A stretch of 59,294 nt of DNA, taken from positions 1 to 59,294 of the forward strand of contig JAGALB010000042.1 of the NCBI GenBank assembly GCA_017625405.1, in the 5' to 3' direction. The notes under the pieces are model-generated. The model was not told where the DNA came from and ran no database searches. It saw nothing but the letters and a program-made list of their open reading frames with translations. A program made the position numbers and the translations under genes. The stretch is from Ruminiclostridium sp. Lineage in GTDB: Bacteria; Bacillota; Clostridia; Oscillospirales; Ruminococcaceae. This document shows, piece after piece, positions 1-14,506 of the stretch (its first letter is position 1; every line of letters begins with the position of its first letter).

Positions 1-1000
1 GCGTCACTATCTGCGTCACTGTCCGCATCGGAGTCTGCGTCGCTGTCTGCATCAGAGTCTGCGTCGCTATCGGAATCGCTATCTGCATCAGAGTCCGCGT
101 CACTATCTGCGTCGCTATCAGCATCACTGTCTGCGTCGGATTCTGCATCTGAATCAGCATCTCTGTCTGCGTCTCTGTCTGCATCGGAATCCGCATCACT
201 GTCTGCGTCAGAGTCCGCATCACTGTCTGCATCGGAATCTGCATCGCTATCTGCGTCAGAATCTGCATCGGAATCAGCATCGCTGTCTGCGTCGGAGTCG
301 GCGTCGCTATCGGAATCACTGTCTGCGTCGCTATCGGAATCACTGTCTGCGTCGCTATCGGAATCACTGTCTGAGTCGCTATCTGCATCGGAGTCTGCGT
401 CAGAATCTGCATCGGAATCTGCATCGCTGTCTGCATCGGAATCTGCGTCGGAGTCGGCGTCGGAATCTGCGTCGGAGTCGGCGTCGGAGTCGGCGTCGCT
501 ATCGGAATCACTGTCTGCGTCGCTATCAGCATCACTGTCTGAGTCGCTATCTGCGTCGGAGTCGGCGTCGGAATCTGCGTCGGAGTCTGCATCACTGTCT
601 GCATCAGAATCTGCATCGCTATCTGCATCAGAGTCAGCGTCAGAGTCAGCATCGGAATCCGCATCGCTGTCTGCATCGGAGTCTGCGTCAGAATCTGCAT
701 CGGAATCTGCATCGCTGTCTGCATCGGAGTCGGCGTCACTGTCTGCATCGGAATCTGCGTCAGAGTCAGCATCGGAGTCTGCATCACTATCGGAATCGGA
801 GTCTGCATCGGAATCCGCGTCGCTGTCGGAATCGCTGTCTGCATCAGAGTCTGCGTCGCTATCGGCGTCAGAATCTGCGTCGGAGTCAGCATCGCTGTCC
901 GCGTCGCTATCTGCATCAGAATCTGCGTCACTGTCGGAATCGGAGTCTGCGTCGGAATCTGCGTCGCTGTCGGAATCGCTGTCAGAGTCTGTATCGCCGT
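1..1000 (-). repeat. Low-complexity Asp-Ser/Asp-Ala coding repeat
   Basis: About 1 kb of repeats of GAY-TCN and GAY-GCN codon pairs, read on the minus strand in the frame of the surface protein. The third base and the Ser/Ala choice vary, so the DNA repeat is degenerate while the protein periodicity (Asp at every second position) is strict. It continues past the left edge. Repeats like this change length by slippage and are often collapsed in short-read assemblies, so the true length is uncertain. Confidence 0.95.
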
Positions 1001-2003
1001 CTACGTCAGTGTCATCTTCGCCTTCGGGATTATCATCGTCTATATCAATATTTTCATCAAGCTTGTCATTTACGTCTTCGTCACCTGTAAATGTGCTGGA
1101 ACCGAACTGGTTAACACCGTCAAAATTATCACAAATGAGCTGACCTTCAAAGTGGTTGTGACCATATTCGCCGGCAGAGCTTACAGAAGCGTTGGGCGCA
1201 AGAAGAGAACCCATGCTATCCTGAATTGTTATTCTATCTGCATCAGGAACGTTAAAAAGAATATTGCTGTTGTTTCCGGATGTGTTTGTAATTGTTTCAC
1301 CTGCGTACTTGCTGGTAGCATTAGCAGCAAGATTTACAGAACCTTCACCGACAATATTTACTACAACAGTTGAACCTGCAGGAACGTCAAAATTAAAGCA
1401 TAACTTTCCTGCTTCACCTGTCTGTTCATTGGCAAGAAGAGCATTATACTCATCAACTGTAAGATTAAATACGTTGATCTTCTCATTTGTGCCGACAAAC
1501 TTGATTTCAGCAGCCCAGTCACCCTTCTGAACAGTACCGTTTGCTGCAATACCGGAAAGGTCCTGAGAAACATTCTTGAGATTTTCAAATTCGCTGTCAA
1601 AATCCACACCGGCCTCTTCGCCTGTTACAACGTTACCGGACTGGGTTGAACCACTTCCGACATTGTTGATTACAGTGCTGGAGCCTGTGTAGTAATTTTC
1701 GGGGAGTGTTGCAGTTCCGCCTACAGCAATATTACCGGGACAGTCAGCGCCGTTTACTGTAAAGTTATTCTTTACAAAAACGTTGTAATCAGCAGCAGCG
1801 CCGAGAAGCTTCTTGACAGTTGTGGTGGTGCTTTCTTCAGAGCTTGCGCCCGCCTCAGTATCGCCGACATTGCTTAAAAGATCGTCAACGGAAGCTGCTG
1901 TTTCTGCGGAAGCGGAAACTGAAAGCGCATTTGAAGACATAACGGAAACAGCTGCAGCAAACGCCATAGCTGATCTTATTCTTCTGCGTCTTTTTTCGCT
2001 CAT
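1..2003 (-). CDS. Ser-Asp/Ala-Asp repeat surface protein with choice-of-anchor-A-like domain (3' end off the window)
   Basis: I read this frame directly. It opens with ATG at 2001-2003 behind AAGGAGG and has no stop before the left edge, so at least 667 residues are present and the C-terminus, with any cell-wall anchor, is missing. Residues 1-33 are a signal peptide (basic MSEKRRRR start, hydrophobic core, Ala-rich cleavage region). Residues about 70-300 resemble a choice-of-anchor A adhesin domain: an early '[14 protein letters not shown]' and a late '[14 protein letters not shown]' segment. An acidic linker follows, then about 330 residues in which every second one is Asp and the others alternate between Ser and Ala. 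Sdr/MSCRAMM proteins carry comparable Ser-Asp stalks that hold a binding head away from the wall. Surface adhesion is inferred; the ligand is unknown. The gene has its own promoter and lies downstream of, but apart from, the pilus operon. Confidence 0.85.
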
Positions 2004-2073
2004 AACGGATTCCTCCTTATGTATTTTTCATAGATTTAAGATTTCATAGATTAAATCGGGATTTTGTGGTACG

Positions 2074-2114
2074 CCGGAAAATGGGGAAATCCGGAAAAAG
2101 GGTATACTTACCCT
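2074..2114 (-). promoter_or_regulatory. Two hairpins in the adhesin 5' leader, one attenuator-like
   Basis: The leader between the promoter and the ATG at 2003 is about 120 nt. In the mRNA sense the first hairpin has stem AGGGTA/TACCCT (2099-2114) and is followed directly by TTTT. The second has stem CCGGA/TCCGG (2074-2094). The first looks like a very short intrinsic terminator. Control by attenuation is inference. Confidence 0.4.
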
Positions 2115-2133
2115 ACTATACCTATTCTATGTC

Positions 2134-2162
2134 ATTATACCATATTTTGGCTTTGTTGTCAA
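2134..2162 (-). promoter_or_regulatory. Sigma-A promoter of the repeat surface protein
   Basis: On the minus strand TTGACA (2157-2162) and TATAAT (2134-2139) are both perfect consensus and are separated by exactly 17 bp. This is one of the strongest promoters in the window and predicts high expression unless the leader attenuates it. Confidence 0.85.
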
Positions 2163-2248
2163 CAAAATCAGGTATTTTTATCACAATTTCCATTGTTGTA
2201 TTTTAACAAAGTTTAAGTGTTGTTTTGTTCACTATAAACAAAAATAAT

Positions 2249-2297
2249 TAAAAACGGGCTTAATCGGCTTTATTTAGCCTTTTAAGTCCGTTTTTTA
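2249..2297 (-). terminator. Intrinsic terminator of the pilus operon
   Basis: An inverted repeat AAAACGGGCTTAA / TTAAGTCCGTTTT (one mismatch) with a nested GGCT/AGCC stem lies just after the pilT stop. In the minus sense the stem ends in GTTTTTAATTATTTTTG. It separates the operon from the surface-protein gene. Confidence 0.75.
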
Positions 2298-2299
2298 AG

Positions 2300-3358
2300 T
2301 TATAAACTACTTACCCTTTTCTTCATAATTTCAGGGTTATAAGCAAACTCAACCGCTGTTTCTGAAGTAATAATTCCTTTACGGAACATATCGAGAATAC
2401 AGCTGTCCATTGTCTGCATTCCGGGGGAGGACTGAAGTATCGTATCGATCTGATGAGTCTTCTCCTCACGTATCATTGTTTTTATCGCACTGTTCATTGA
2501 CATTATTTCAAACGCAGGAACAAGCGTTCCGTCAACAGACGGCAGAAGCTGCTGGGAAACAACGCCCTTAAGCACCATGGAAAGCTGGATTCTTATCTGA
2601 CGCTGCTGATTTATGGGGAACACGTCGATAATTCTGTCAATAGTGCTTGCTGCGCCCAGTGTATGAAGTGTTGAAAGCACAAGCTGACCTGTTTCGGCAG
2701 CAGTCATGGCAACGCTGATAGTTTCATAGTCACGCATTTCACCCAGCAGAATTACATCGGGAGATTGTCTGAGGGCTGCACGGAGCGCATCAAGGTAGCT
2801 GTTTGTGTCAAGATTGATTTCACGCTGGCTTATAATACTCTTATCATGACGGTGGAGAAACTCGATAGGATCTTCGATTGTGATAATATGATTCTTCTGA
2901 GTGGAATTAATGCGGTTTATAATACAGGAAAGAGTTGTTGATTTACCGTTACTTGCCGCACCTGTGATAAGCACGATGCCGCCCTTGCATTTGCTGAACT
3001 CCATAACCTGCTCGGGTATACCCAGCTTTTGTGCATCGGGAAGTTCGAAAGGCACAAATCTGAGAACAGCCGCAAAAGAACCACGCTGTTTGTATATGTT
3101 TGCTCTGAAACGTCCCATTCCGCTTACAGAGAACGAAAAGTCCATTTCCCTTTCAGGAAGCTTGTCATTTTCAAGCGGCATGTTTGAAATTTTAAAAATC
3201 TCACGGACAAGCGCTTCCGTATCAGCTGTTGTCAGAATTCCTTCACCAAGCCTTGAAATAACGCCGTGCGCTTTATAACTGAGAGGTGCACCGCCGACAA
3301 TAAATATATCCGAAGCTGAATTATCAGTCGCAGTTTTTAAAATTGAAAATAAATCCAT
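2300..3358 (-). CDS. pilT: PilT-family type IV pilus retraction ATPase
   Basis: A hexameric ATPase of the PilT/GspE superfamily, expected on the cytoplasmic face of a type IV pilus, where it depolymerises the fibre. Visible motifs: Walker A GAASNGKST (Asn where Ser is usual), Asp box 'TIEDPIEF', Walker B 'PDVILLGEMRD', His box 'LSTLHTLGAASTIDRI' and the C-terminal PilT region around 'AIKTMIREEKTHQI' and 'GMQTMDSCI'. That C-terminal region favours PilT over PilB. The ATG at 3358 is chosen because AGGAGAA lies 8 nt upstream; a longer frame from 3424 would overlap the preceding gene. The protein has 352 residues, a normal PilT length. It is the last gene of the operon, 22 nt after its neighbour, and is followed by a terminator. 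No PilB, PilM or prepilin peptidase gene is in the window. Confidence 0.92.
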   Translation of the reverse strand: MDLFSILKTATDNSASDIFIVGGAPLSYKAHGVISRLGEGILTTADTEALVREIFKISNMPLENDKLPEREMDFSFSVSGMGRFRANIYKQRGSFAAVLRFVPFELPDAQKLGIPEQVMEFSKCKGGIVLITGAASNGKSTTLSCIINRINSTQKNHIITIEDPIEFLHRHDKSIISQREINLDTNSYLDALRAALRQSPDVILLGEMRDYETISVAMTAAETGQLVLSTLHTLGAASTIDRIIDVFPINQQRQIRIQLSMVLKGVVSQQLLPSVDGTLVPAFEIMSMNSAIKTMIREEKTHQIDTILQSSPGMQTMDSCILDMFRKGIITSETAVEFAYNPEIMKKRVSSL

Positions 3359-3380
3359 AAAATATTTCTCCTGTATAATT

Positions 3381-3911
3381 TTATCCCAGTGCCGAACCGT
3401 CCCAGACACCGAGAGTTTCTTCACTATCTTCGCCGGAAGCAGCCACGGTTTTCCACTCCTCTATGCGATAACGCCCTCCGTCACGGGGAGTATCAAAAAA
3501 CAGTATTTTTACTGAAATCTCAGTATTATCGGTAACAGGACAGGCATAGGATGCAAGGAAGCCTTCCTGCACTCTTTTTAAGACGGGAGTAACCGCATAA
3601 ACCCTGTCATTTTGTTCTGCAAGCTTTTCTTCGCATATTGCCTCAAAGCTGTCAGAGAAAAATCCTGTTCCGTGCGCCTCGTAAGCCGCTTCATCCAATG
3701 CACAAAGCACTTCATTCGCTATACCGTCGGCAAGATAATAAGATGATGTATAATAAATACTTTTTTCATTGAGCTTGTCATTTGCTCTTGCCGCCTGGTA
3801 GGATAAGGAAGCAAGCACCGTAAGGCAGATGACTGCAAAAAGCATAATAAGCGTGACATAGCCTACACCCATGCCTCTTTCCTGGAACAGTGACTTTCTG
3901 TTATCATTCAT
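3381..3911 (-). CDS. Pilus-associated membrane protein (PilX/minor-pilin-like)
   Basis: A protein of 176 residues with one N-terminal membrane helix at about 14-36 and a polar, probably extracytoplasmic remainder. Such proteins between PilC and PilT usually act as minor pilins or assembly factors, but no prepilin cleavage site (G-F-T-L-x-E) is visible. The ATG at 3911 has GGGAGGT 7 nt upstream; a GTG at 3920 overlaps that site and is less likely. It overlaps the previous gene by 8 nt, which points to translational coupling. Family-level function is inferred from position. Confidence 0.7.
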   Translation of the reverse strand: MNDNRKSLFQERGMGVGYVTLIMLFAVICLTVLASLSYQAARANDKLNEKSIYYTSSYYLADGIANEVLCALDEAAYEAHGTGFFSDSFEAICEEKLAEQNDRVYAVTPVLKRVQEGFLASYACPVTDNTEISVKILFFDTPRDGGRYRIEEWKTVAASGEDSEETLGVWDGSALG

Positions 3912-4371
3912 CTGCGGCACCTCCCTTAGTCGGGAAATACGCTTCGCAGATTACAGGCGAAAACAGTTTTCCTTTGTTCGTCCTGAACTCAAACTCCAGA
4001 CATGAAAGTCTGCCCGCTTCGGTTTCATTGGTGTTCTGAAGCATTGACAGTATAATTTCCCCATCCTCACAGGGCATCATATTATCATCAAGACGGATTT
4101 CAGCAATATGACCATCAGAAACGCCTGCATCCCCGCCGAAAACAATTTCAGCAGCTTCGGTGAAATCACCTGTAACAGCAAATGCTTCCGCTATTGACTG
4201 AGAACAGATAAGCGCATTCTCCACAAGTTCACTGTGCTTCTGCCTGTGATCTGCCGCCGCAAAAATACCCAGTATTACTGCCGCTGAAAAACTGAAGAAA
4301 AGCAGTATGACAATCAGCTCGATAAAAAACAGATTGGCAGGTCTCAGCCTTGCTTTACTGTTGGTTTTCAA
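3904..4371 (-). CDS. Minor-pilin-like protein
   Basis: The N-terminus carries 'RPANLFFIELIVILLFF', which resembles the (F)xxIELIVvi helix of type IV prepilins, including the Glu at the usual +5 region. The Gly before the cleavage site is not present, so processing is uncertain. The rest is a soluble domain of about 110 residues. The start is not certain: TTG at 4371 is spaced 8 nt from GGTGG, while GTG at 4383 abuts the ribosome binding site. It overlaps the preceding gene by about 17 nt and the next by 8 nt. Assignment rests on the pilin-like helix and operon position. Confidence 0.65.
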   Translation of the reverse strand: MKTNSKARLRPANLFFIELIVILLFFSFSAAVILGIFAAADHRQKHSELVENALICSQSIAEAFAVTGDFTEAAEIVFGGDAGVSDGHIAEIRLDDNMMPCEDGEIILSMLQNTNETEAGRLSCLEFEFRTNKGKLFSPVICEAYFPTKGGAADE

Positions 4372-4828
4372 CGTGACTACCACCCTTTCTTACAAGCACG
4401 GACGCTGAATTTTCACCGCAGGAAACAGAAATTTCATACAATCCGTTATTTTCAGTAACATTCAAATCATCAGCAGGAACTATAAGCTCTCCGCCATCAG
4501 CTGCTGCCTCTGAGCCGGCAGGAAGATTTCTTTCGTAAATTCCATTTTCGGAAGAATAGATAACACAGAGAATGTTTCCGTTTTCAAGAACGATTCCCTT
4601 TCCGCCATCCATAATTTTACAGCTGTCGGAGGCTCTGATTTTATTCGAAACATATTTTATAGCGGCAGAAGAACCATAAGTCGCTTCGTAACCGCCCGTT
4701 ATACGGCTGTAAATGCCTGCACCCGCACCGATTATCACAATCATGCAGATTGCAAAAATCAGGAACAGCAGCAGACTCGCCGCAGTACCGAGGACACGTG
4801 ATGTTCCCTTGTATCTTACGCCTTTCAT
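4355..4828 (-). CDS. DUF4860-like pilus-cluster membrane protein
   Basis: A short cytoplasmic N-terminus is followed by a strong helix ('LLLFLIFAICMIVIIGAGAGIY', within residues 17-38) and about 115 mostly polar residues. It resembles DUF4860 proteins found beside type II/IV secretion genes in Clostridia; this is recognised by appearance, not by search. The ATG at 4828 has AAGGAG upstream; a TTG at 4849 would run into the previous gene. It starts 1 nt after the preceding stop, so it is translated with its neighbours. Probably a minor pilin or assembly factor. Confidence 0.6.
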   Translation of the reverse strand: MKGVRYKGTSRVLGTAASLLLFLIFAICMIVIIGAGAGIYSRITGGYEATYGSSAAIKYVSNKIRASDSCKIMDGGKGIVLENGNILCVIYSSENGIYERNLPAGSEAAADGGELIVPADDLNVTENNGLYEISVSCGENSASVLVRKGGSHVENQQ

Positions 4829-4829
4829 A

Positions 4830-5144
4830 TCAGGACTCCTTTTCAACAACGGTTACGGAAGGACGGATATTTGCCGCAAAGCATTCGTAATGCACTATGT
4901 AACGGTCATCATCATAATTAAGACCGTAATTTTCAGTAAGGTACGCAAGGTTTTCAGGATATGCACCCTCAAGGGAATAACAGAGGGTTATATCATTTTC
5001 AACCGAGCGTTTTATTGCTTCAAGCTGCTCGGAACGTGTTGCACCGTCAGCGGAATCCATCGCTGCCAGAAACCACACAACCGCAGCAGCAAAGCCTGCT
5101 ATTGCTATCAGCGGAGCTATATACCGTGAAGTCTTGTTTTTCAT
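4830..5144 (-). CDS. Small pilin-like membrane protein
   Basis: 104 residues: a basic start (MKNKTSRY), one membrane helix at about 10-28, then a soluble part containing 'DITLCYSLEGAYPENLAYL'. That segment is reminiscent of the 'A...Y....G.YP..L..L' pattern after the helix in pseudopilins of the GspG type. No prepilin peptidase site precedes the helix. It sits 10 nt after pilC and 1 nt before the next gene. The pseudopilin-like role is inferred. Confidence 0.6.
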   Translation of the reverse strand: MKNKTSRYIAPLIAIAGFAAAVVWFLAAMDSADGATRSEQLEAIKRSVENDITLCYSLEGAYPENLAYLTENYGLNYDDDRYIVHYECFAANIRPSVTVVEKES

Positions 5145-5154
5145 AAATTCACCT

Positions 5155-6192
5155 TTATCCCAGTGCGGACATTATATTCATAAGCGGAATCATTATTGTA
5201 AGAAGAACAGCACCTATCATCACCGCAAGGAGCAGTACAATCACAGGTTCAACCAGCGAAAGAAGATTTGAAACCGTGCGCTGCGCTTCCTCATTTGTGC
5301 GGATGCTGATTTTTCGCCATACTGCATCAAACGAACCCGATGTATACGCAATTTTCAGTGAACGGGCATACATTTTGGGAAGGATACCCGATTCGCATAT
5401 TGCTTCCGAAAAATATTCACCCTTACGCACTCTCTCAAGGCAGTCAGAAAGCTGTGCGGAAAGTTTTTTATCGGATATAAGCCCTGCACAGTGTTCCAGT
5501 GCTTCTTCAGGCTCGATTCCGCTGGTTATCATAAGGCACATGGCGTCTGCAAGCTTCGCCTGGGCAAGTGTACGTGAAATACCCCTTGTCAGCGGGAATA
5601 CCGAAGCGAGCTTCAGCACGGCCTTTTTCACAGGCGGTACAAGAAGAATAATTCCGATAAGCACTATCAGGGCAATCAGCACAATCAGAATAATCTCGCC
5701 TGCTCCGTAGGCAATACTTACTATATCCTGTACGGCAGAGCCGATGCCTGTATCGAACTGAGAGAAAATCTCGGTAAACATAGGTATGATTTTCACTACG
5801 AGAATTATCATAACTACGGTCATCATCACAAGCAGCATACACGGATGGAAAACCGCATACCTGACAGTGCGCTCCATATCGGCACGGCCTTCGTAATATT
5901 CAGAAAGACCCTTCAGGGTTTCGTCAAGCTTACCCGACATACCGCCTATTTCGGTCATTCTGACAGAATATTCGGGAAAAGCACCGCTTTCGGCTATCGC
6001 TTCGGAAAGAGGCATTCCCTGTTCGGTCTTTTCAGCAAGAAATCTGCATATTGCAGAAATATTGCTGTCCTCCATATCCTCGGAAAGTATTTCAAGACCA
6101 TCATCAAGCTGCATACCAGTATTGATCATAAGCCACAGCTGTTCAAAAAAGAATGCAGTCTGTTCAAAATTCAGCTTTTTCAATTTTGCCAT
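5155..6192 (-). CDS. pilC: PilC/GspF-family inner-membrane platform protein
   Basis: 345 residues with the two-repeat architecture of the T2SS F domain. Each half has a soluble helical part ('FEQLWLMINTGMQLDDGLEIL' and 'LADAMCLMITSGIEPEEALEHC') followed by membrane helices. A pair of helices lies at about 113-190 and a C-terminal helix at about 310-340. In type IV pili this protein forms the membrane platform on which the ATPases act. It begins 17 nt after the transglutaminase-like gene and precedes the pilin-like genes. The start ATG has GAAAGGACG upstream. Confidence 0.88.
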   Translation of the reverse strand: MAKLKKLNFEQTAFFFEQLWLMINTGMQLDDGLEILSEDMEDSNISAICRFLAEKTEQGMPLSEAIAESGAFPEYSVRMTEIGGMSGKLDETLKGLSEYYEGRADMERTVRYAVFHPCMLLVMMTVVMIILVVKIIPMFTEIFSQFDTGIGSAVQDIVSIAYGAGEIILIVLIALIVLIGIILLVPPVKKAVLKLASVFPLTRGISRTLAQAKLADAMCLMITSGIEPEEALEHCAGLISDKKLSAQLSDCLERVRKGEYFSEAICESGILPKMYARSLKIAYTSGSFDAVWRKISIRTNEEAQRTVSNLLSLVEPVIVLLLAVMIGAVLLTIMIPLMNIMSALG

Positions 6193-6209
6193 GAGATTTA
6201 CGTCCTTTC

Positions 6210-7463
6210 TCAGTATCTGTAAACTGATGCATAATTTCCGCTGTCGGAAATATAATCAGCTATACTTTTCTTGTTTTCAGCACTTGCATAAAATGTCGCA
6301 TCAACAATATTGTACCCTTTGTTCTTCAGCAGAAGCTCAGGCGTTATCCAGCCCGTCTCCTTTGTGTAGACTTCATTCCATGCATGGTATATGTCATCTG
6401 CGGCATATCCGATGACAAGACGTGTAGGTATACCCTGCGAACGGCACATTGCCGCAAACAGGGATGCATAATCAAAACAGATACCCTTTTTCACCTTAAG
6501 CACCTTGTCGGGGTCAGGGATATAACCGCTCTGGACCGTAGCGGCAAGATTATAGTCATAGGTCACGTTATCTGTTATAAACGCAAATATCGCCGCTATT
6601 TTTTCTATATCATCCTTTGCACCTCCGCAAAGCTCTGCGGATTTAATGACACAATCGGATTTTTCATCAAACATTGAATAACTGTTGGGATACAGATACA
6701 TTCCGACTTCATCGGCAATTTTCACCTTAACCGAAATATCAAGAACGGACATATACATTTTGCCGTCATACTGCTCGTAAATCTGTATACGATAATCGCC
6801 GCTTCCCTGCATAAGCGGAAAATATGTTTTTTCTCCCGTAACGGGAAGGTCATGGTCGCAGGTCACACCGTTACAGACAATTCTCAGCTTCGCCTTTTTA
6901 CTGCTGCCGCTGTACGAGGCGCTTATATAACCGTCAGAAGCGTTGCTGTAATCAACCGAAGCTGTACCCGCATCCTCTTTTTCTGTACCGGGAGAGCTTA
7001 CCTTGCTGACCTTTATTTCAGCAGGCGGCTTCTGTGCTGCAGGCACGCTCGTTTCCGAAATCAGCTGAGTCTGCGACGTCGCCGTAACGGATTCAGTTGT
7101 CTGTGACGTGGTAGTTGTGGTAGTTACAGAAACAGAGGTTATCGTTTCCGTTGTTTCTTCAGAAGAAATCGTTGTTTCCTGAACAGATGTAATCTCTTCG
7201 GAAACAGTCGTTGTTTCTTCTTCCGATGTGGTTGATACGGTTGTAGTTGTTTTTTCTTCCGTAGTTATAACCGCCGATGTTGTCGTCTGCGACGGCTCTG
7301 AAGAGCTGTCAGTTGCTTCAGTTGTGGTGATGACAGCAGTCACAGGCGGATTATCCGACGCATAAGTATGTACGGAGGAAGATACCTGATTTGCCGCACA
7401 TGACGAACAGAGCAGAATCGCCGCACAAAGCGACAATATCCGCATTAATGGCGATTTACGCAT
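6210..7463 (-). CDS. Transglutaminase-like lipoprotein with Thr-rich linker
   Basis: The N-terminus has a lipoprotein-type signal ending in 'LLCSSCAAN'. Residues about 35-150 form a low-complexity Thr/Ser/Glu linker, then an all-beta stretch, then a transglutaminase core near residues 320-400: 'GICFDYASLFAAMCRSQGIPTRL' with the catalytic Cys, 'HAWNEVY' with the His, and 'IVDATF' with the Asp. Such domains act as proteases, amidases or crosslinkers, so the reaction is not set by sequence alone. The ATG at 7463 has GAAAGGAGGAAG upstream; an ATG at 7481 overlaps that site. It lies between the CapA fusion and pilC in one operon, so it may process or crosslink pilus or surface components (inference). 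Confidence 0.82.
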   Translation of the reverse strand: MRKSPLMRILSLCAAILLCSSCAANQVSSSVHTYASDNPPVTAVITTTEATDSSSEPSQTTTSAVITTEEKTTTTVSTTSEEETTTVSEEITSVQETTISSEETTETITSVSVTTTTTTSQTTESVTATSQTQLISETSVPAAQKPPAEIKVSKVSSPGTEKEDAGTASVDYSNASDGYISASYSGSSKKAKLRIVCNGVTCDHDLPVTGEKTYFPLMQGSGDYRIQIYEQYDGKMYMSVLDISVKVKIADEVGMYLYPNSYSMFDEKSDCVIKSAELCGGAKDDIEKIAAIFAFITDNVTYDYNLAATVQSGYIPDPDKVLKVKKGICFDYASLFAAMCRSQGIPTRLVIGYAADDIYHAWNEVYTKETGWITPELLLKNKGYNIVDATFYASAENKKSIADYISDSGNYASVYRY

Positions 7464-7495
7464 ATATCTTCCTCCTTTCATTATTATAAATAATA

Positions 7496-10400
7496 TCAGC
7501 GTTCCAGTCTGAGATTTCTCATAGAAATATAGGCGTCGTCAGCCTTGGTGAATTTACGCTGTTTTCCTCCGCTGAGAATATGTGCAAGGAATACGCCTGC
7601 TTCACGGTAGAATTCGTGCTCATAGTGCACCATACGTGCACCGCCCAGGGGATATTTATCAGAAGCATAGAAATGCTTTGAAATATCAATGACAGCACAA
7701 TCTGTCTGGTTGATGAACAGATCTTCACAATAAGCAATGAATTCACGCTTGCGTTCAAGATAAGGATCTTCATCCATCTTTTCAATACGCTTGTAGAGAT
7801 TTACAAAGCAGTCCTTGAGATCCGCTTTTATCAGCACTATGTTATTGCCATAAAGATTCATCATATCAAAGGCAAAGTGAGTAATCGCATCACGGCATTC
7901 CTGCATCGTGCGCTTATCAAACAGATAACAGGGCTCGCATTTGCTTTCGATACCCTTATAAAAGGCAGTCTTGCGGATAAAGTCGTCAACTTCAAAAAGT
8001 CCGCCCTTATATTCATTCATATTGCAGATAACGTCATAGAAATCCACAACAAGCCATTTCGCATGTTCTGCTTTCAGCTGCTCCAGACCGTTACGGGCAA
8101 AGGAATCAGCCATCGTGCGCCTGCGCCATGCATTGTTTTTAAATTCAGACAATTCCTCGGGTACTTCAACAGGAACAGGCTTGTCATATGCAAGAACAGG
8201 ACACTGCTTGAAAATATATTTTCCTATACCCGAATTCTTGCAGCAATTGAAAATTTCTCTTGAAATACAGCTGCCCCAGATATCGGCTGTGCGGTTTCTG
8301 AGCTGAACAGCATACTGTTCAAACTGTTCAGGCTTGTCTCTCAGCAGGAAAACACGCTCAGCAGATTCGGCACTTACATATATTCCGGTTTCATCGGAAA
8401 GAAGCTTTGCTATCTTCTTCACTATATTGAATTTTCCTTCAAATGCAGGAGCATAGAAAGAATATGAACGGCTGATATCGCCCGCCAGCACCGCACGTAT
8501 AAGCTTTGCAACCGTAATAAGCTCCGCAGCACCCGGATCATCCGCAAAGAATGTGGAAATTTTTCCAAGACTTGCAGTTCCGCACTTTTTAAGCTTTAAA
8601 AGACGGCTCTTATTGGCTGCGGTAAATTCCTTGCTTGTGTAGGCAATAATCACATCTGCCGCATTGTTCATATCAAGCAGCCAGCTCTGGAAGGATCTCG
8701 CAATCATATTTTCATAGCAATTAAGTACTCGTTCCATCCATATATCCAGGTCAGGCATATCGACACAGCGACGGTTGTTTCTGACAATTTTCTTTACAGC
8801 ATTATATGCGTCATTGAAATAATACTGTTCAAAATTACTGGGAGAGCTTCCTGCTGTAAAATAATGGCGGGAAAGATTTACCACAGACGGATCTGTAAGA
8901 TTGATGAAATATTCTTCCATCTCGGCAATCTGGTTGTTGAGCGAGCTGCGCAGAGGAATATTACGCAGTTCGGTTCCGCCCTTTACAAACTTATCAGGGA
9001 ACTGATATCTGAAAAGAATTATACGCTCGGATGGGAATTCAGACAATACCGCCTCAGCATACTTCTTGACAAGGGGTTTCCAGAATCTTTCCTCATATGG
9101 CGGCTTTATACGTGTGAATTCTTCCATGCGGTTATTATAGAAATTGGATTTCAGGAAACGGTTGTTGCCTGTATAGAGTGTACCGTTTCTTTCATAGCAG
9201 GAAACGCCTGCGGCTGTGTAGAAATCCACCGCAATATAATCGGCATCGCTGTTTTTGAGATATTCGGCAAAGCCCTTTCCCACATCAAGCTCAAGGGATG
9301 TTGTCATACCCTTTGTAGGCAGTGCTTCTCCACTGCATGACGTGAGCTGAGAAACAAGCAGAGGGTATTTATCCACATCGGCAAAATTGCCTGCATCAAA
9401 TATTCTTTCAAGGATAACCGAGCCGCTGAGCAGAATTTCGGGACGGTATTCAAAAGGCTGTATCTCTTCACCCATTGTTTCCTTTGTTCTCGCAAGGGAT
9501 CTCTTTGAAGCGTCATTGAAATAGTTATCAACGGGATGAACGGTAACACCGCAGGGAGAGTTTGCGCTCATACAGGGAATATAGGAAATGTCAGCTTCAA
9601 TTTCCTCACCTGCACGGAAAAGCTCTACACGCAGAATTACACTGTCACGGTTTTCGTTAAGCTCAGCCTGAGAGCTTATGAAATTGCCGAGAGAATATGC
9701 ACAGGGCACTCTTCTTCCTCTGGGAGTTGTGACATAACGGAATTCCTGAATCATGTGGGGATGAGAACCCACAATAAGGTCAACACCGCAAAGCGCCATG
9801 AACTGTGACTCCTGAATCTGCTTCTCCTTTACCGTTTTTGAGTTCATACTTCCCCAGTGCTGGTATGCAACCACATATTCCGCACCGCCGCCTCTTGCAA
9901 GATCGTACATACGCTGGAAGTATTCACGGCTGTATGTGCCTCTGGTATCGGGAGTTATTTCGGGTATATTATTTTCGTGACCGTTGGATATCATTGTAAA
10001 GGCTATAAAGCCCACACGTATTCCGTTTATGTCACGGAACACGGGGTTATCGCCGAGAGAGCCGAGATTGTACATACCCAGCTGCTTTACACTTTCAACA
10101 GTGGCGCAAAGACCCTCATAGCCTGTATCACAGGAGTGATTGTTTGCAGTTACAAGCATATCAAAGCCTGCTTCCGCCACCGCTGAAAGGAAGGTTGACG
10201 GAGAGTTGCAGTTGGGAGCGCCGCTGTCAAGACGGAGCTGCTCATATTCATAAGGCACAGGGTCATAACAGGTGGTTTCAAGAACACCTACGCTGAAATC
10301 GGCCTCTTTAAGTATTTTACGTACAGGATTGAAGCTGTCGTGAAAGTCAAACTGGCGTGAGGAGCAGGCACGCTGATGGTTTACAGCGCACATAAGGTCG

Positions 10401-10960
10401 CCTGTGAACATAAGCACAGCCTTTGCCTGAGCCATTGTCTGGCCACGTTCAACATATACCTTTACAGCAATTTCCTGACCTTCGGACACAATTGCAATTT
10501 CAGTTCTGCCGGGAGCAAGAGCACGCACTATACCGTTACGGTCAACATCAACAATATCCTCGTCTTCCGCATAGAAAAGCGCATATGGTCTTGTATTGCG
10601 GTATTCCCAGTCTATCTGGGCAATCTCGCCTGTTGTCATACAAAGGACCTTCTGAGCTTTAAGCTCCATGGAAATAGGTGTAAACGGTATTTTGGCAGAA
10701 GCTTCACCTTCGCACTCCTTACCGTCTTCATAGTAAAAGGCACGCACTGCTACAAGGTACTTTTCGCCGTTGAAAAAGCCAAGCACCTGCTTTTTATTCT
10801 TCTGTGAATAGCGTCTTTTAATGCATACACGTGGTTTTTCTTCCCTGAAGAAAAACAGCATATAGCCGTCGGCACCCTCAACGGGGTCCCACTTGACACA
10901 AACGGCATTATCACGAGGCTCGGCAACTACATTTTCGGGAGCCGCAAGTGTTAAAGGCAT
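7496..10960 (-). CDS. CapA-like metallophosphatase fused to FN3, Big2-like and two DUF6270 domains
   Basis: 1154 residues. Order read from sequence: fibronectin-III-like (about 7-95), bacterial Ig-like (about 97-173), CapA/PgsA metallophosphatase-like (about 180-475), DUF6270-like copy 1 (about 530-780) and copy 2 (about 920-1140). The CapA part has 'FTGDLM', 'ANNHSCDTG', 'YQHWG' and 'VGSHPHMIQ'. Copy 2 has the 'GSCISREIF' motif of SGNH-like domains and 'VVDFYD'; copy 1 has 'VSQLTSCSG' and 'AVDFYTAAG'. DUF6270 domains usually occur in polysaccharide loci. There is no signal peptide or membrane helix, which is odd for a CapA protein. It begins 3 nt after the preceding stop, behind AGGAAA. A role in making or modifying a surface glycopolymer is inference. 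Confidence 0.82.
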   Translation of the reverse strand: MPLTLAAPENVVAEPRDNAVCVKWDPVEGADGYMLFFFREEKPRVCIKRRYSQKNKKQVLGFFNGEKYLVAVRAFYYEDGKECEGEASAKIPFTPISMELKAQKVLCMTTGEIAQIDWEYRNTRPYALFYAEDEDIVDVDRNGIVRALAPGRTEIAIVSEGQEIAVKVYVERGQTMAQAKAVLMFTGDLMCAVNHQRACSSRQFDFHDSFNPVRKILKEADFSVGVLETTCYDPVPYEYEQLRLDSGAPNCNSPSTFLSAVAEAGFDMLVTANNHSCDTGYEGLCATVESVKQLGMYNLGSLGDNPVFRDINGIRVGFIAFTMISNGHENNIPEITPDTRGTYSREYFQRMYDLARGGGAEYVVAYQHWGSMNSKTVKEKQIQESQFMALCGVDLIVGSHPHMIQEFRYVTTPRGRRVPCAYSLGNFISSQAELNENRDSVILRVELFRAGEEIEADISYIPCMSANSPCGVTVHPVDNYFNDASKRSLARTKETMGEEIQPFEYRPEILLSGSVILERIFDAGNFADVDKYPLLVSQLTSCSGEALPTKGMTTSLELDVGKGFAEYLKNSDADYIAVDFYTAAGVSCYERNGTLYTGNNRFLKSNFYNNRMEEFTRIKPPYEERFWKPLVKKYAEAVLSEFPSERIILFRYQFPDKFVKGGTELRNIPLRSSLNNQIAEMEEYFINLTDPSVVNLSRHYFTAGSSPSNFEQYYFNDAYNAVKKIVRNNRRCVDMPDLDIWMERVLNCYENMIARSFQSWLLDMNNAADVIIAYTSKEFTAANKSRLLKLKKCGTASLGKISTFFADDPGAAELITVAKLIRAVLAGDISRSYSFYAPAFEGKFNIVKKIAKLLSDETGIYVSAESAERVFLLRDKPEQFEQYAVQLRNRTADIWGSCISREIFNCCKNSGIGKYIFKQCPVLAYDKPVPVEVPEELSEFKNNAWRRRTMADSFARNGLEQLKAEHAKWLVVDFYDVICNMNEYKGGLFEVDDFIRKTAFYKGIESKCEPCYLFDKRTMQECRDAITHFAFDMMNLYGNNIVLIKADLKDCFVNLYKRIEKMDEDPYLERKREFIAYCEDLFINQTDCAVIDISKHFYASDKYPLGGARMVHYEHEFYREAGVFLAHILSGGKQRKFTKADDAYISMRNLRLER

Positions 10961-10963
10961 AAC

Positions 10964-12688
10964 TTAATTTCCTTTCTTCTTTTCTTCTGCCTGTGTACGC
11001 AGAGCATCCAGCTTTTCATAATTCCTGTAAAGCGAATAATACGCTCCGCAGAAATGCTGGATATCATCAATTCTGATACGATACCCGTCATGGCGTACAA
11101 AGAACGAACCGAGAATCTTTTCGGGGTATTTCAGATACATTGCATATTCGGGATAAGCATAACCGTTGAGCATGTAATGCGCACGGTGGAAAATTGTTTC
11201 AACAAAATAATCCACATCAAATTCCTTGAGATAATCAACCTCAAGATTTTCAGTGATTATGCGGTCGTAAAGCTCAAATGTAATACATAAAAGCTCAAGA
11301 TATGTATGATAAGTTGTTCTCTGCTTGTGAATCTTCTTAAGATTCACCTGGGCATTACGCAGCGCAAAGGAAAGGTATTCATTTGTAGGCTTATACTTTG
11401 TGATTTCATTCATCGCATAGCCAACCCAGTGGTCACGGTACTTTGTGTAATCCTCACGGATAAATCGGTCAACCGCCAGCGACGCAGCATCAAGCCAGCG
11501 CTGCTCCTTTGTGATACCATAAAGCCTTGTAAGACCGAAAACAGCTTCACCGTCATAATAGACAGTACGCATTTTAGCCTTGACATTAAGGTCTGGAATG
11601 CTGAGAACGTGGGTAAATTCTCCCGTTTCCTTGTCAAGCAGCTCAAGAATACCGTTTGCAAGCTCCTGGCAGAGCTTTACATACTTGTCGCTGCCTGTGA
11701 GATTCATATATTCGGTAAGCATTATAATCGCAAGACCGTTTCCGCCCAGTTTGACCTCCATTTTGTCAATGTCAGCGATAAAGGCGGTATTTTCTTCGTC
11801 ACGGGGCTTCTTGTACTTGTAGAAGGAATTTTTTACAAGATAACCGATTGCGCCTTCAACCTGTTTCAGTATAAAAGCGTCACCGGTAATGCGGTAGGCA
11901 CAGATAAGACTCCACAGGGAGCTTGCGTGACGGAGGATATTATAACCGGGAATAAAGCTGTGTCGGATAGGATAAACGCCGTATTCAAACTTTCCGTTAA
12001 GGTCAAGCTGATTTGAAAGATATGTAGACGAGGTAGTGATGACATCCAGCGCATGCTTCTTTTCAAATCTCTTCAGGACACGTCTGCCGATGTTCATGCC
12101 ACGCCAGTAAAGCCTGTGCGTCTTTTTATTTTCATCGCACAAGGCGCTGCGGCAGTCAAAAGTGATTACTTCCTCGGGAAGCTCAGTCAGTGAAATTCCG
12201 CAGGCTTTCGGAAGATATCTGTTGACCTGCTCAACTTTTATGGTTTTTTCCTTATATGAAATTACACGGTTGCCGTTTATTTCGGCTTCAATAAGGGCGG
12301 TTTTATATTCAGGGTCAAAGGAAATACCGTGACGGTAAAATTCATTGAAGTCTTTAGAAATGGTTTCGATAAGGTCAGTAAGCTTTACCTTCTCGGATTT
12401 GCACATTATATCCGCTTTTACCCATACAGGCTTGCATTCCTTGAGGGAAATATATTTTACTGCCGCCTTGCATGCATCATGCCACGCCTGCTCAAGAGTA
12501 GACGCAGATGCGTGTACTACCTTTGCACGTGTGATGGTATTGCAGACAGAAAAAAACACTGTGAAAAGACCGCTTATGCAAAGTGCGGGAGCATACTGTT
12601 CCTCCAGTTCTTCAAATGTTTTTCCGGAAAGGAGCTTGTTTTTCAGCAGTTCGGCTTTTTCATTGAATTCGAGTACATATATTTTCAT
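10964..12688 (-). CDS. Six-hairpin (alpha/alpha)6-barrel-like protein with unidentified N-terminal domain
   Basis: 574 residues, no signal peptide. The N-terminal about 200 residues are mixed alpha/beta and not recognised. From about residue 230 the helical pattern ('HASSLWSLICAYRITGDAFIL', 'GGNGLAIIMLTEYMNLTG', 'YDGEAVFGLTRLYGIT', 'WVGYAMNEITKY') resembles the six-hairpin glycosidase/epimerase fold of GH88, GH105 or AGE-like proteins. Catalytic residues cannot be assigned. The ATG at 12688 follows GGAGGG; the frame upstream to 12703 runs over that site. It is the first gene of the operon, 3 nt before the CapA fusion, so the two probably act on the same polymer. The substrate is unknown. Confidence 0.6.
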   Translation of the reverse strand: MKIYVLEFNEKAELLKNKLLSGKTFEELEEQYAPALCISGLFTVFFSVCNTITRAKVVHASASTLEQAWHDACKAAVKYISLKECKPVWVKADIMCKSEKVKLTDLIETISKDFNEFYRHGISFDPEYKTALIEAEINGNRVISYKEKTIKVEQVNRYLPKACGISLTELPEEVITFDCRSALCDENKKTHRLYWRGMNIGRRVLKRFEKKHALDVITTSSTYLSNQLDLNGKFEYGVYPIRHSFIPGYNILRHASSLWSLICAYRITGDAFILKQVEGAIGYLVKNSFYKYKKPRDEENTAFIADIDKMEVKLGGNGLAIIMLTEYMNLTGSDKYVKLCQELANGILELLDKETGEFTHVLSIPDLNVKAKMRTVYYDGEAVFGLTRLYGITKEQRWLDAASLAVDRFIREDYTKYRDHWVGYAMNEITKYKPTNEYLSFALRNAQVNLKKIHKQRTTYHTYLELLCITFELYDRIITENLEVDYLKEFDVDYFVETIFHRAHYMLNGYAYPEYAMYLKYPEKILGSFFVRHDGYRIRIDDIQHFCGAYYSLYRNYEKLDALRTQAEEKKKGN

Positions 12689-12714
12689 ACTGACCCTCCT
12701 CATAACCGCATAGT

Positions 12715-12733
12715 TATACTTATTATAAGTATA
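12715..12733. promoter_or_regulatory. 19-bp perfect palindrome over the operon -10 box
   Basis: TATACTTATTATAAGTATA is a perfect palindrome with a one-base centre. Its right end is the -10 hexamer of the pilus/CapA operon promoter. This is the expected geometry of a repressor operator, or of a 5'-end hairpin in the mRNA. Confidence 0.5.
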
Positions 12734-12756
12734 TCATAAAAAACTGATTTTTTCAA
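12728..12756 (-). promoter_or_regulatory. Sigma-A promoter of the nine-gene CapA/pilus operon
   Basis: On the minus strand TTGAAA (12751-12756) and TATACT (12728-12733) are 17 bp apart. Intervals in the following 10.4 kb are all 32 nt or less and contain no terminator, so this promoter probably serves 12688 down to 2300. Confidence 0.65.
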
Positions 12757-12778
12757 GCCTAATTGAGTTATTTACAAA

Positions 12779-12815
12779 ATAAAAAAAAGCCGTTTCCGAA
12801 AGGGAAACGGCTTTC
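12779..12815 (-). terminator. Terminator of the chemoreceptor gene
   Basis: Perfect stem AAAGCCGTTTCC / GGAAACGGCTTT with a short loop, followed on the minus strand by eight T. It starts 11 nt after the chemoreceptor stop. Confidence 0.92.
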
Positions 12816-12825
12816 ACTATCTCAA

Positions 12826-14157
12826 TTATTCTTCTCTAAGGCTGAACTGAGCAACAAGTTCCTTTAACATGGAAGCCTGACCGGAAAGCTCTTCAGAAGC
12901 AGCCGCAGACTGTTCGGATGTTGCAGAGTTGTTCTGTACAACAGAGGAAATCTGATCAATACCTGTTGTAACCTGAGTGATGGCATCAGCTGCACCATTG
13001 GAGGAATCAGCGATTCTTGCGTTGATTTCAGCAACTGCACCTGCAGCGGCAGCAACACTTGACATCTTTTCAGCAACTTCCTTAACAAGGTTGTTACCCT
13101 TTTCGATGGAGTTAACAGTGTTTTCGATAAGAATTGTTGTATTGTTTGCAGCTTCAGCAGACTTACCTGCGAGGTTACGTACTTCGTCAGCAACTACTGC
13201 GAAGCCCTTACCTGCATCACCTGCACGTGCAGCTTCAACAGCAGCATTGAGAGCAAGGATGTTTGTCTGGAAAGCGATATCTTCGATAGCCTTGATAATC
13301 TTGTGAATTTCTTCAGAGGAATCACTGATTTCCTTCATAGCTACAACGAGTTCAGCCATTCTGTCGTTTGCTTCGCTCATCTGAGCACCTGCAATACCTG
13401 TCTTCTTGTTTGCTTCAGTAGCATCAGAAGCATTTGCAACGATCATTTCGGAAATAAGGTTGATTGTAGCGGAAAGCTCTTCGATAGAAGAAGCCTGTTC
13501 GGTAGCGCCCTGAGAAAGTGCCTGTGCGCCGCCGGAAACCTGTTCGGAACCGCTTGCAACCTGACCGGAAGCGGTATTGATCTGAACAAGTGTGCCGTTG
13601 AGCTGTGCAAGGAAGCTCTTGAGGGAAACGAGGATGCGTTCAAACACACCTGTGTAGATAGCTTCGTCAGAAACGTTGACATTAAGATTACCGTCAGCAA
13701 CTTCTTCGAGTACTACACTGATATCATCAATAACAGTCTTTGTGTTGGAAGCAAGTGCAGTAAGAGATTCACCGGTCTTGCTGATTTCATCCTTATAAGG
13801 ATATACAAACGCAACTTCAAAATCACCGTTTGCCATCTTTTCGGCAGCAGTGGAGATCTGTTCAAGACCCTTTTTGATATTGCGTGTAAGGATTACCGCC
13901 ATACCAACGCCTGCAAGAACGCCTAAAATGGAAACAATAACGATAATAGTGATTGTAAGTTCACACTGTGTTGAAACGTACTGTATACGAGCCTCATCAA
14001 GTACAGCTCCTGCTGTTGTTGCTTCTGCCACTACCTCATTATATGCATTATAGAATGTACTGAGTGCGTTGACGGAGATTCCGATTAAAATCAGAACAAC
14101 AACAAGAATAATACCGAATACTGCAATAAGTTTTTTCTGGACGCTTAAATTTTTCAT
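12826..14157 (-). CDS. Methyl-accepting chemotaxis protein with minimal external domain
   Basis: 443 residues. TM1 at about 10-31, only about 35 residues outside the membrane, TM2 at about 67-90, HAMP at about 90-145, then a coiled signalling domain with the near-invariant tip '[21 protein letters not shown]...[13 protein letters not shown]'. The tip binds CheA/CheW in known receptors. The external part is far too short for a Cache or four-helix ligand domain, so it may sense within the membrane or cytoplasm, or through a partner protein. No che or flagellar genes are present; the nearest motility genes are the type IV pilus genes next door, which suggests control of twitching (inference). 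Single gene with its own promoter and terminator; ribosome binding site AAGGAAGGA. Confidence 0.93.
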
Positions 14158-14247
14158 AAAAATTAAATCCTTCCTTAGATTTTTAATGCGTTTCCGCTAT
14201 GACCATAGCAGGGATACTCCAAAAAACGCATTCTTTATATAGTACTA

Positions 14248-14276
14248 ATTATTACATATTTGGGCAATATTGTCAA
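14248..14276 (-). promoter_or_regulatory. Promoter of the chemoreceptor gene
   Basis: On the minus strand TTGACA (14271-14276), 17 bp, then AATAAT (14248-14253). The gap 14158-14506 also holds the divergent GH74 promoter; I saw no gene in it. Confidence 0.55.
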
Positions 14277-14429
14277 TAATAAAAAAAAATAATCGGAAAA
14301 TCTCCCACAAAAATTATTAAAACATCCAACCGTTTAACGAATTTAATATTGTTTTTTTAGCCAAAATCACAAAACAGTTGTATAAATTGAACAAAAAGCC
14401 GTATTTTGCCGATTTGTTACACAAAGGGC

Positions 14430-14458
14430 TTGTTTTTTAAAAATCCTCATTGTATAAT
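14430..14458 (+). promoter_or_regulatory. Promoter of the GH74-like gene
   Basis: TTGTTT (14430-14435), 17 bp, TATAAT (14453-14458). The ribosome binding site AAGGAG follows at about 14494 and the ATG is at 14507. Confidence 0.7.
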
Positions 14459-14506
14459 GAAAAAAATCATTAAGCACTTATTATACTCAGATAAAGGAGT
14501 ATTGTC

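Follow-up and report, generated by a model that had tools for sequence, protein, structure and literature searches.

A conserved composite operon of Ruminiclostridium sp. joins a CapA-DUF6270 gene pair to an accessory pilus-type cassette beside a Ser/Thr-Asp stalk surface protein

Analysis of the 59,294-nucleotide contig JAGALB010000042.1 of the gut bacterium Ruminiclostridium sp. (assembly GCA_017625405.1; hereafter the window, with positions on the forward strand) revealed a nine-gene operon, g1 to g9, which we are nearly certain is a real, conserved and composite one. The operon is two units joined, each of which also exists apart: the pair g1-g2 and the seven-gene pilus-type cassette g3-g9. 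Behind it lies a tenth gene for a surface protein with a stalk of Ser-Asp (SD) repeats. The best explanation, to which we give slightly less than an even chance, is a three-part adhesion locus in which an accessory pilus-like cassette and an adhesin are combined with g1-g2 as modifiers of the adhesin stalk. The original prediction, made from the letters of the window, described the gene content of the operon correctly but ended one gene early, leaving the surface protein (2003-3) outside. No description of this gene combination was found in the open-access literature searched.

The ORF (open reading frame) list showed nine ORFs, all on the minus strand, from 12688 to 2300. The intergenic distances were 3, 32, 17 and 10 nucleotides, and the later genes overlapped or nearly touched, depending on the start chosen. 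Ribosome-binding sites backed the starts of g1 (12688) and g3 (7463), and the predicted row of nine same-strand genes with overlaps or gaps of at most 32 nucleotides was confirmed. The predicted terminator was also found, as a strong minus-strand hairpin at 2300-2242 (-19.6 kcal/mol, z -5.1, 0/200 shuffles as low). A promoter match (12756-12728, minus strand, 10/12 positions) preceded g1 and sat behind the hairpin terminator of the upstream gene, a methyl-accepting chemotaxis gene. The sigma-70-type scan of positions 1-14500 gave 33 matches against 26.8 expected by chance. Because an equally good match (6578-6549, minus strand, 10/12 positions) fell inside g3, within the 7496-6192 interval that the original prediction had singled out, a second transcript start is conceivable; the front promoter match agrees with the prediction, and it may be the sole promoter of the nine genes. 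Family searches in Pfam and NCBIfam bore out the CapA-DUF6270, transglutaminase, PilC and PilT contents and the analysis supported their close linkage, and g1, g5, g7 and g8 had no family match over its cut-off. A plasmid origin was looked for, and megablast gave no match.

To define the conservation of the operon, loci were collected by a profile scan with a 12-row g1 alignment, which gave 250 confirmed relatives, of which the best 80 were kept. With tblastn, all nine genes were found in the same order on one strand in 15 of these 80 g1 loci (L206, L207, L210, L214-L219, L221-L224, L226 and L268), so the case in which relatives never carry the CapA pair next to pilus genes, named with the original prediction as its test, was refuted. 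Identity to the window was 49-68% for g1 and 69-85% for PilT, and the g6-g7 and g7-g8 overlaps were preserved in nearly all complete loci. Four further loci were cut, L211 within g4 and L208, L209 and L213 within g2, and the near-relative G004 carried g2-g9 on one contig headed by the end of g1. Among 60 genus genomes drawn, g2 lay beside pilus genes, in the stretches examined, only in the window's own genome and G004. On the PilT tree, the operon loci and the sister loci, which have the cassette without g1-g2, formed one set of 27 (99/96); the sister loci were one clade (98/100), with operon loci on both sides of it in the best tree but united in 31% of bootstraps. Adjacency by descent, with two units locked together and no functional link, would fit this single set of 27 and the occurrence of each unit without the other. 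We consider it very unlikely, as the order and most overlaps held while the pilin-like proteins dropped to 30-58% identity, and a separate junction of g1 and pilT was found in two genomes placed elsewhere on the tree (G022 and G045).

The cassette consists of a transglutaminase-like protein, PilC, four atypical pilin-like proteins and PilT, and it defines a seven-gene accessory pilus cassette common in this genus. In 40 further genus loci, the transglutaminase-like gene stood directly before PilC in 39 and PilT followed in 36, the five misses being at contig ends. The product of g3 (6210..7463) is a transglutaminase-like, probable lipoprotein (Transglut_core, 8e-27). Its Cys and His were present in 52/52 aligned rows and its Asp in 49/52 (Glu in 3), so the Cys-His-Asp triad is present; a simple lipobox pattern fitted 11/16 operon rows, and the window's own LLCSSC did not fit it. 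The g4 product (5155..6192) is a PilC/GspF-type membrane protein of the short form (345 amino acids) with a T2SSF match of 8e-43, over the Pfam cut-off; all NCBIfam equivalogs were below theirs. The next four genes had been predicted to encode pilin-like proteins, which was true in general, but they were atypical. They are a small pilin-like membrane protein without a prepilin motif (g5, 4830..5144), a pilin-like DUF4860 protein with an uncertain start (g6, 4355..4849; 1.5e-6), a pilin-like protein whose position +5 is Glu and whose position -1 is Asn (g7, 3904..4383), and one with Gly ahead of the hydrophobic segment and no Glu at +5 (g8, 3381..3920). When 16 operons were read by eye, the full prepilin site (Gly or Ala, then a hydrophobic stretch, with Glu at +5) was found in none of g5-g8; in g7, Glu was at +5 throughout, whereas at position -1 Asn stood in 14 operons and Val or Ile in the other 2. 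DUF4860 was present in 33/60 genus genomes. The last gene, g9 (2300..3424, with a start probably downstream of 3424), encodes a PilT-type ATPase (PilT family 7e-118; TIGR01420 393.7 bits, cut-off 319.1; solved PilT structure 2ewv, E 1.4e-100).

The missing parts of the pilus were located elsewhere in the genome. PilB, PilM and the prepilin peptidase had been reported as missing, and none was found in the operon by the ORF list or family searches, but all three are present on another contig of the same genome (C48), together with a second PilC, two N_methyl prepilins and another PilT homologue. The genome had a single Peptidase_A24 match, on C48, and one copy of PilB lies on that contig. PilB-type ATPases at E<=1e-60 were found in 58/60 genus genomes and in 36/36 of the good ones, none over the model's cut-off. 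The simplest reading is that the cassette would encode an accessory assembly leaning on this core locus. A further PilT homologue was present outside both pilus loci, on contig C7 (L054, 7904-8953).

The g1 product (10964..12688; 574 amino acids from the ATG at 12688) showed no signal peptide on reading and had the conserved motifs YDGEA and RIDD.QH. Compared with solved structures, the g1 family gave only weak matches that were not significant (YteR, 0.19; D-glucuronyl C5-epimerase, 0.97). An (alpha/alpha)6-like protein had been predicted; from matches at this level a barrel-like fold may be taken only as a lead. The g2 product (7496..10960; 1154 amino acids) combines a CapA/PGA_cap domain at residues 183-431 (3e-47), which is one feature of CapA/PGA_cap polyglutamate synthesis, with two DUF6270 domains (1e-16, two stretches); a weak Big_2-like match lies ahead of the latter, and no signal peptide was read. 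No CapB/CapC-type partners were found among the nine genes, the rest of the genome not having been searched for them. The G-D and GSHPH-type His of CapA were kept in 16/16 operon rows and the NNH motif in 11-13/16, and the Ser and His of the second DUF6270 in 16/16. These sites and the transglutaminase triad suggest that the enzymes may be active, and no more than that. Neither glucuronyl-epimerase activity of g1 nor an SGNH fold of the DUF6270 half is claimed, because the structure matches of both were insignificant. Several observations were made around this pair. Contig C56 of the same genome (L191, 8004-9728) encodes another member of the g1 family, whose start resembles a signal peptide, in a neighbourhood that recurs in several genus genomes. 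In records named Lachnospiraceae, Parablautia, Oscillibacter or Eisenbergiella (L242, L253, L234), g1 relatives follow large surface proteins, one with FctA isopeptide domains and two with sub-cut-off thioester-domain matches. Upstream of the operon in L214 (6687-9946), ZapA and a U32 peptidase were identified (Pfam, this locus only), and ORFs resembling them precede the operon in other loci and lone g2 orthologues in G014, G025 and G031, hinting that this may be the ancestral place of g2.

The tenth gene (3..2003, minus strand) encodes a surface protein with a pAdhesive_15 head and a stalk of S-D-A-D repeats, cut by the contig end. The window contig ends inside these repeats (1-1100), and the contigs of G004, L206 and L220 likewise end in this gene, probably as assembly breaks in repeats. 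The C-terminus of the window protein is therefore off the contig; complete relatives close with a motif of NPxTG or NPxMG type followed by a hydrophobic stretch and K/R, and one of them, L289, had an anchor match over the NCBIfam cut-off. A surface-protein ORF lay behind pilT in 15/15 complete operon loci, and likewise in sister cassettes without g1-g2. The window head matched those of L040, L206, L207 and the sisters L160 and L156 well. Contig C38 of the same genome (L294, 1117-4530) encodes a second pAdhesive_15 protein, whose stalk consists of DSDK repeats and whose end is anchor-like. The type of stalk differed with the presence of g1-g2. At least 30 Ser/Thr-Asp pairs ([S/T]D) per 100 amino acids were present in 10 of the 12 readable loci with g1-g2 (the window, G004, L206, L207, L210, L214, L216, L220, L223 and L226), compared with 0/10 sister loci without them (L150-L154 and L156-L160), which scored 1-8. 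The stalks contrasted despite kinship of the heads, that of the window being 39% identical to that of L160. The Fisher value of 1e-4 for this contrast treats related loci as independent and is not to be read as if they were. Operon loci with the stalk outside the sequence read (L211, L215, L218, L219, L221, L222 and L224), the three cut in g2 and sister L155 at a contig end stood outside this count. In L220, g1-g2 lay directly before a gene with a Thr-Asp (TD) stalk, without the cassette; the one PilT match of that genome (48%) belonged to a core-type cluster, and no cassette-type PilT was found in it.

A second link to SD repeats came from gene fusions. In G022 and G045, g1 was fused to a GT4 domain closest to the SdgB/SdgA models of NCBIfam (1e-78 and 2e-74, at about 250-265 bits, where the cut-off is 800), the fused gene being first behind pilT in G022 and second in G045. 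The best structure matches of the G022 domain were 7ec1, 7ec3 and 7ec7 (8e-66 to 9e-66), named group 1 glycosyltransferases, which we take to be SdgB and SdgA. The opposite strand beside the fused gene of G022 carried a TD-repeat fragment whose end is anchor-like, and in the same record set another contig ends in a choice-of-anchor-A protein that has a TD stalk. Around g1 loci without g2, 4/31 adjacent large proteins were SD-rich compared with 0/138 others, and by a simple rule, with operon loci included, an anchor-like C-terminus was found in 10/75 g1 neighbours compared with 4/235 others. The idea of an additional SdgB-like enzyme in genomes with g1-g2 did not hold up: at 1e-15 the SdgB model matched in 0/19 genomes with g1-g2, many of them incomplete, and overall it matched in 3/33 genomes, none over the cut-off. 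The CapA-DUF6270 protein could therefore take the place of SdgB. The third match to this model (1e-43) lay in a 959-amino-acid ORF in the genome of L279 (L308, 7851-10730), beside putative flagellin ORFs. Other g1 relatives had further partners, a radical-SAM domain fused in G003 and a CapA-LicD protein behind g1 in G046. The LicD case, the PGA_cap family of g2 and the presence of TarM among the structure matches of the fused domain would accord with g1-g2 making or trimming a wall glycopolymer (capsule or teichoic-acid-like), with the operon shared only for surface co-regulation. This is unlikely in our view, since no polymerase, flippase or transporter gene was recognised among the nine genes and the fused glycosyltransferase was nearer to SdgB (1e-78) than to GtfA (1e-29), TarM trailing at 2e-27 behind the best structures.

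It was also considered that g1-g2 act on the pilus itself, modifying the pilin-like proteins or a pilin that comes from the core locus, or producing a polymer by which the fibre is coated or anchored. The pair is co-operonic with pilus genes in all 15 complete loci, g1 stands behind pilT in both fusion genomes, and modification has been suggested for the R. flavefaciens pilin, with R. albus cited for it, in the part of PMC3672088 available to us. On the other side, 38 of the 40 further cassettes were without g1 in the stretch examined, L220 has g1-g2 and the adhesin but no cassette, and elsewhere the relatives of g1 have SD-rich or anchored proteins as neighbours more often than chance would give. 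Pilus modification thus seemed unlikely, and the fibre or tip modified or anchored by a surface polymer, which the original prediction had proposed, is not favoured in the light of the further cassettes and L220. In the stalk-modification reading that we prefer, g3-g9, with a PilC platform and a PilT motor of their own, would build an accessory assembly resembling a type IV pilus, probably borrowing PilB, PilM and the prepilin peptidase from the core locus on C48, and the transglutaminase-like lipoprotein would work outside the membrane on cassette products. The adhesin from the tenth gene would be of the wall-anchor type and borne on a long stalk of Ser/Thr-Asp. Pilus and adhesin may also be physically linked. 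The proteins g1 and g2, predicted to be cytoplasmic, would modify the Ser/Thr of this stalk, filling the role of SdgA/SdgB-type glycosyltransferases in other SD-repeat systems; that the SD stalk of the adjacent adhesin is the target has a probability we put at little under one half. A wider proposal, possible but rather doubtful, is that g1 is the common core of a new Ser/Thr-Asp adhesin modification whose partners swap (SdgB-like glycosyltransferase, CapA-DUF6270, CapA-LicD, radical SAM), and that a PilT-only accessory pilus made together with it may handle or position the decorated adhesin.

Several results weighed against stalk modification by g1-g2. The notion that SD stalks track g1-g2 without exception was rejected by L217 (G067), which keeps g1-g2 and has PTTDEPDV repeats with 13 [S/T]D per 100, and by L268, close kin of the window, which keeps g1-g2 and has EP repeats up to the contig end. 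The stalk contrast may be a single loss, because the ten sister loci form one clade; moreover, some sister stalks were read only in part, and 98 bases are masked in L158. In front of the adhesin gene stands a separate sigma-70-type promoter match with 12/12 positions (2162-2134, minus strand), and the gene is outside the operon transcript. Heads of the L214 type matched each other and L216/L217, and L206 weakly, with no clear similarity to the window head; pAdhesive_15 was found in 13/21 genomes searched, not always in the tenth gene, and L210, L215, L219, L220 and L221 had no match to it. Only 2 of the 40 further cassettes had g1 nearby. A g1-type protein and a CapA-DUF6270 protein of about 1229 amino acids are paired without a pilus in many relatives, and about ten genus genomes have g2 orthologues (38-46% identity) that are not near g1 or pilus genes; such copies must serve some other purpose, and another role of the pair is therefore possible. 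The adjacent choice-of-anchor-A protein of the G045 fusion had just 10 [S/T]D per 100 amino acids, and the SdgB model is not specific, because it also rang in 9/14 control genomes. Finally, we know of no activity of DUF6270, nor of any activity of CapA or DUF6270 on proteins.

Among known systems, the pilus part adds a new variant to the type IV pilus loci, and g1-g2 are a candidate new system for SD-stalk modification. In the ComG competence pseudopilus, several small, tightly overlapping pilin-like proteins come after a short PilC-like one. The operon shares this arrangement but has a PilT-type instead of a ComGA-type ATPase and no canonical ComGC-like pilin. Of the features of a type IVa pilus, it has the PilC platform and PilT, with a prepilin peptidase in the genome, but neither PilB in the locus nor canonical prepilins. 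No paper on DUF6270 or DUF4860 was found in the open-access literature searched, and the locus provides a functional context for both families. According to the part of the source available, Ruminococcus flavefaciens 007 has a core type IV pilus cluster with a PilC/F-type protein and PilT (PMC3672088), and C48 of the window's genome carries a comparable core set; the operon is a second locus, which lacks PilB, PilM and the peptidase and adds the transglutaminase-like and atypical pilin-like proteins. Two pil loci per genome are also found, as far as the available portions tell, in Gram-positive systems with two clusters (PMC3244431) and in Pseudoruminococcus massiliensis (PMC8726730), but the second operon in PMC3244431 is without pilT, whereas the one here has pilT and lacks pilB. 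In Staphylococcus aureus, SdgA and SdgB add N-acetylglucosamine to Ser-Asp repeats and their genes adjoin sdr genes (PMC3794999, in the sections available). The likeness lies in modification genes, here candidate ones, next to an SD-repeat, wall-anchored adhesin and in the fusion of g1 to an SdgB-like enzyme in two relatives; the difference is that the window's genome gave no SdgB-model match at 1e-15 and has a putative CapA-DUF6270 enzyme in that place. If g1-g2 do modify SD stalks, adhesion by a commensal could be tested with two genes, and they would represent a second bacterial route, unlike that of SdgA/SdgB, to the decoration of Ser-Asp adhesins.

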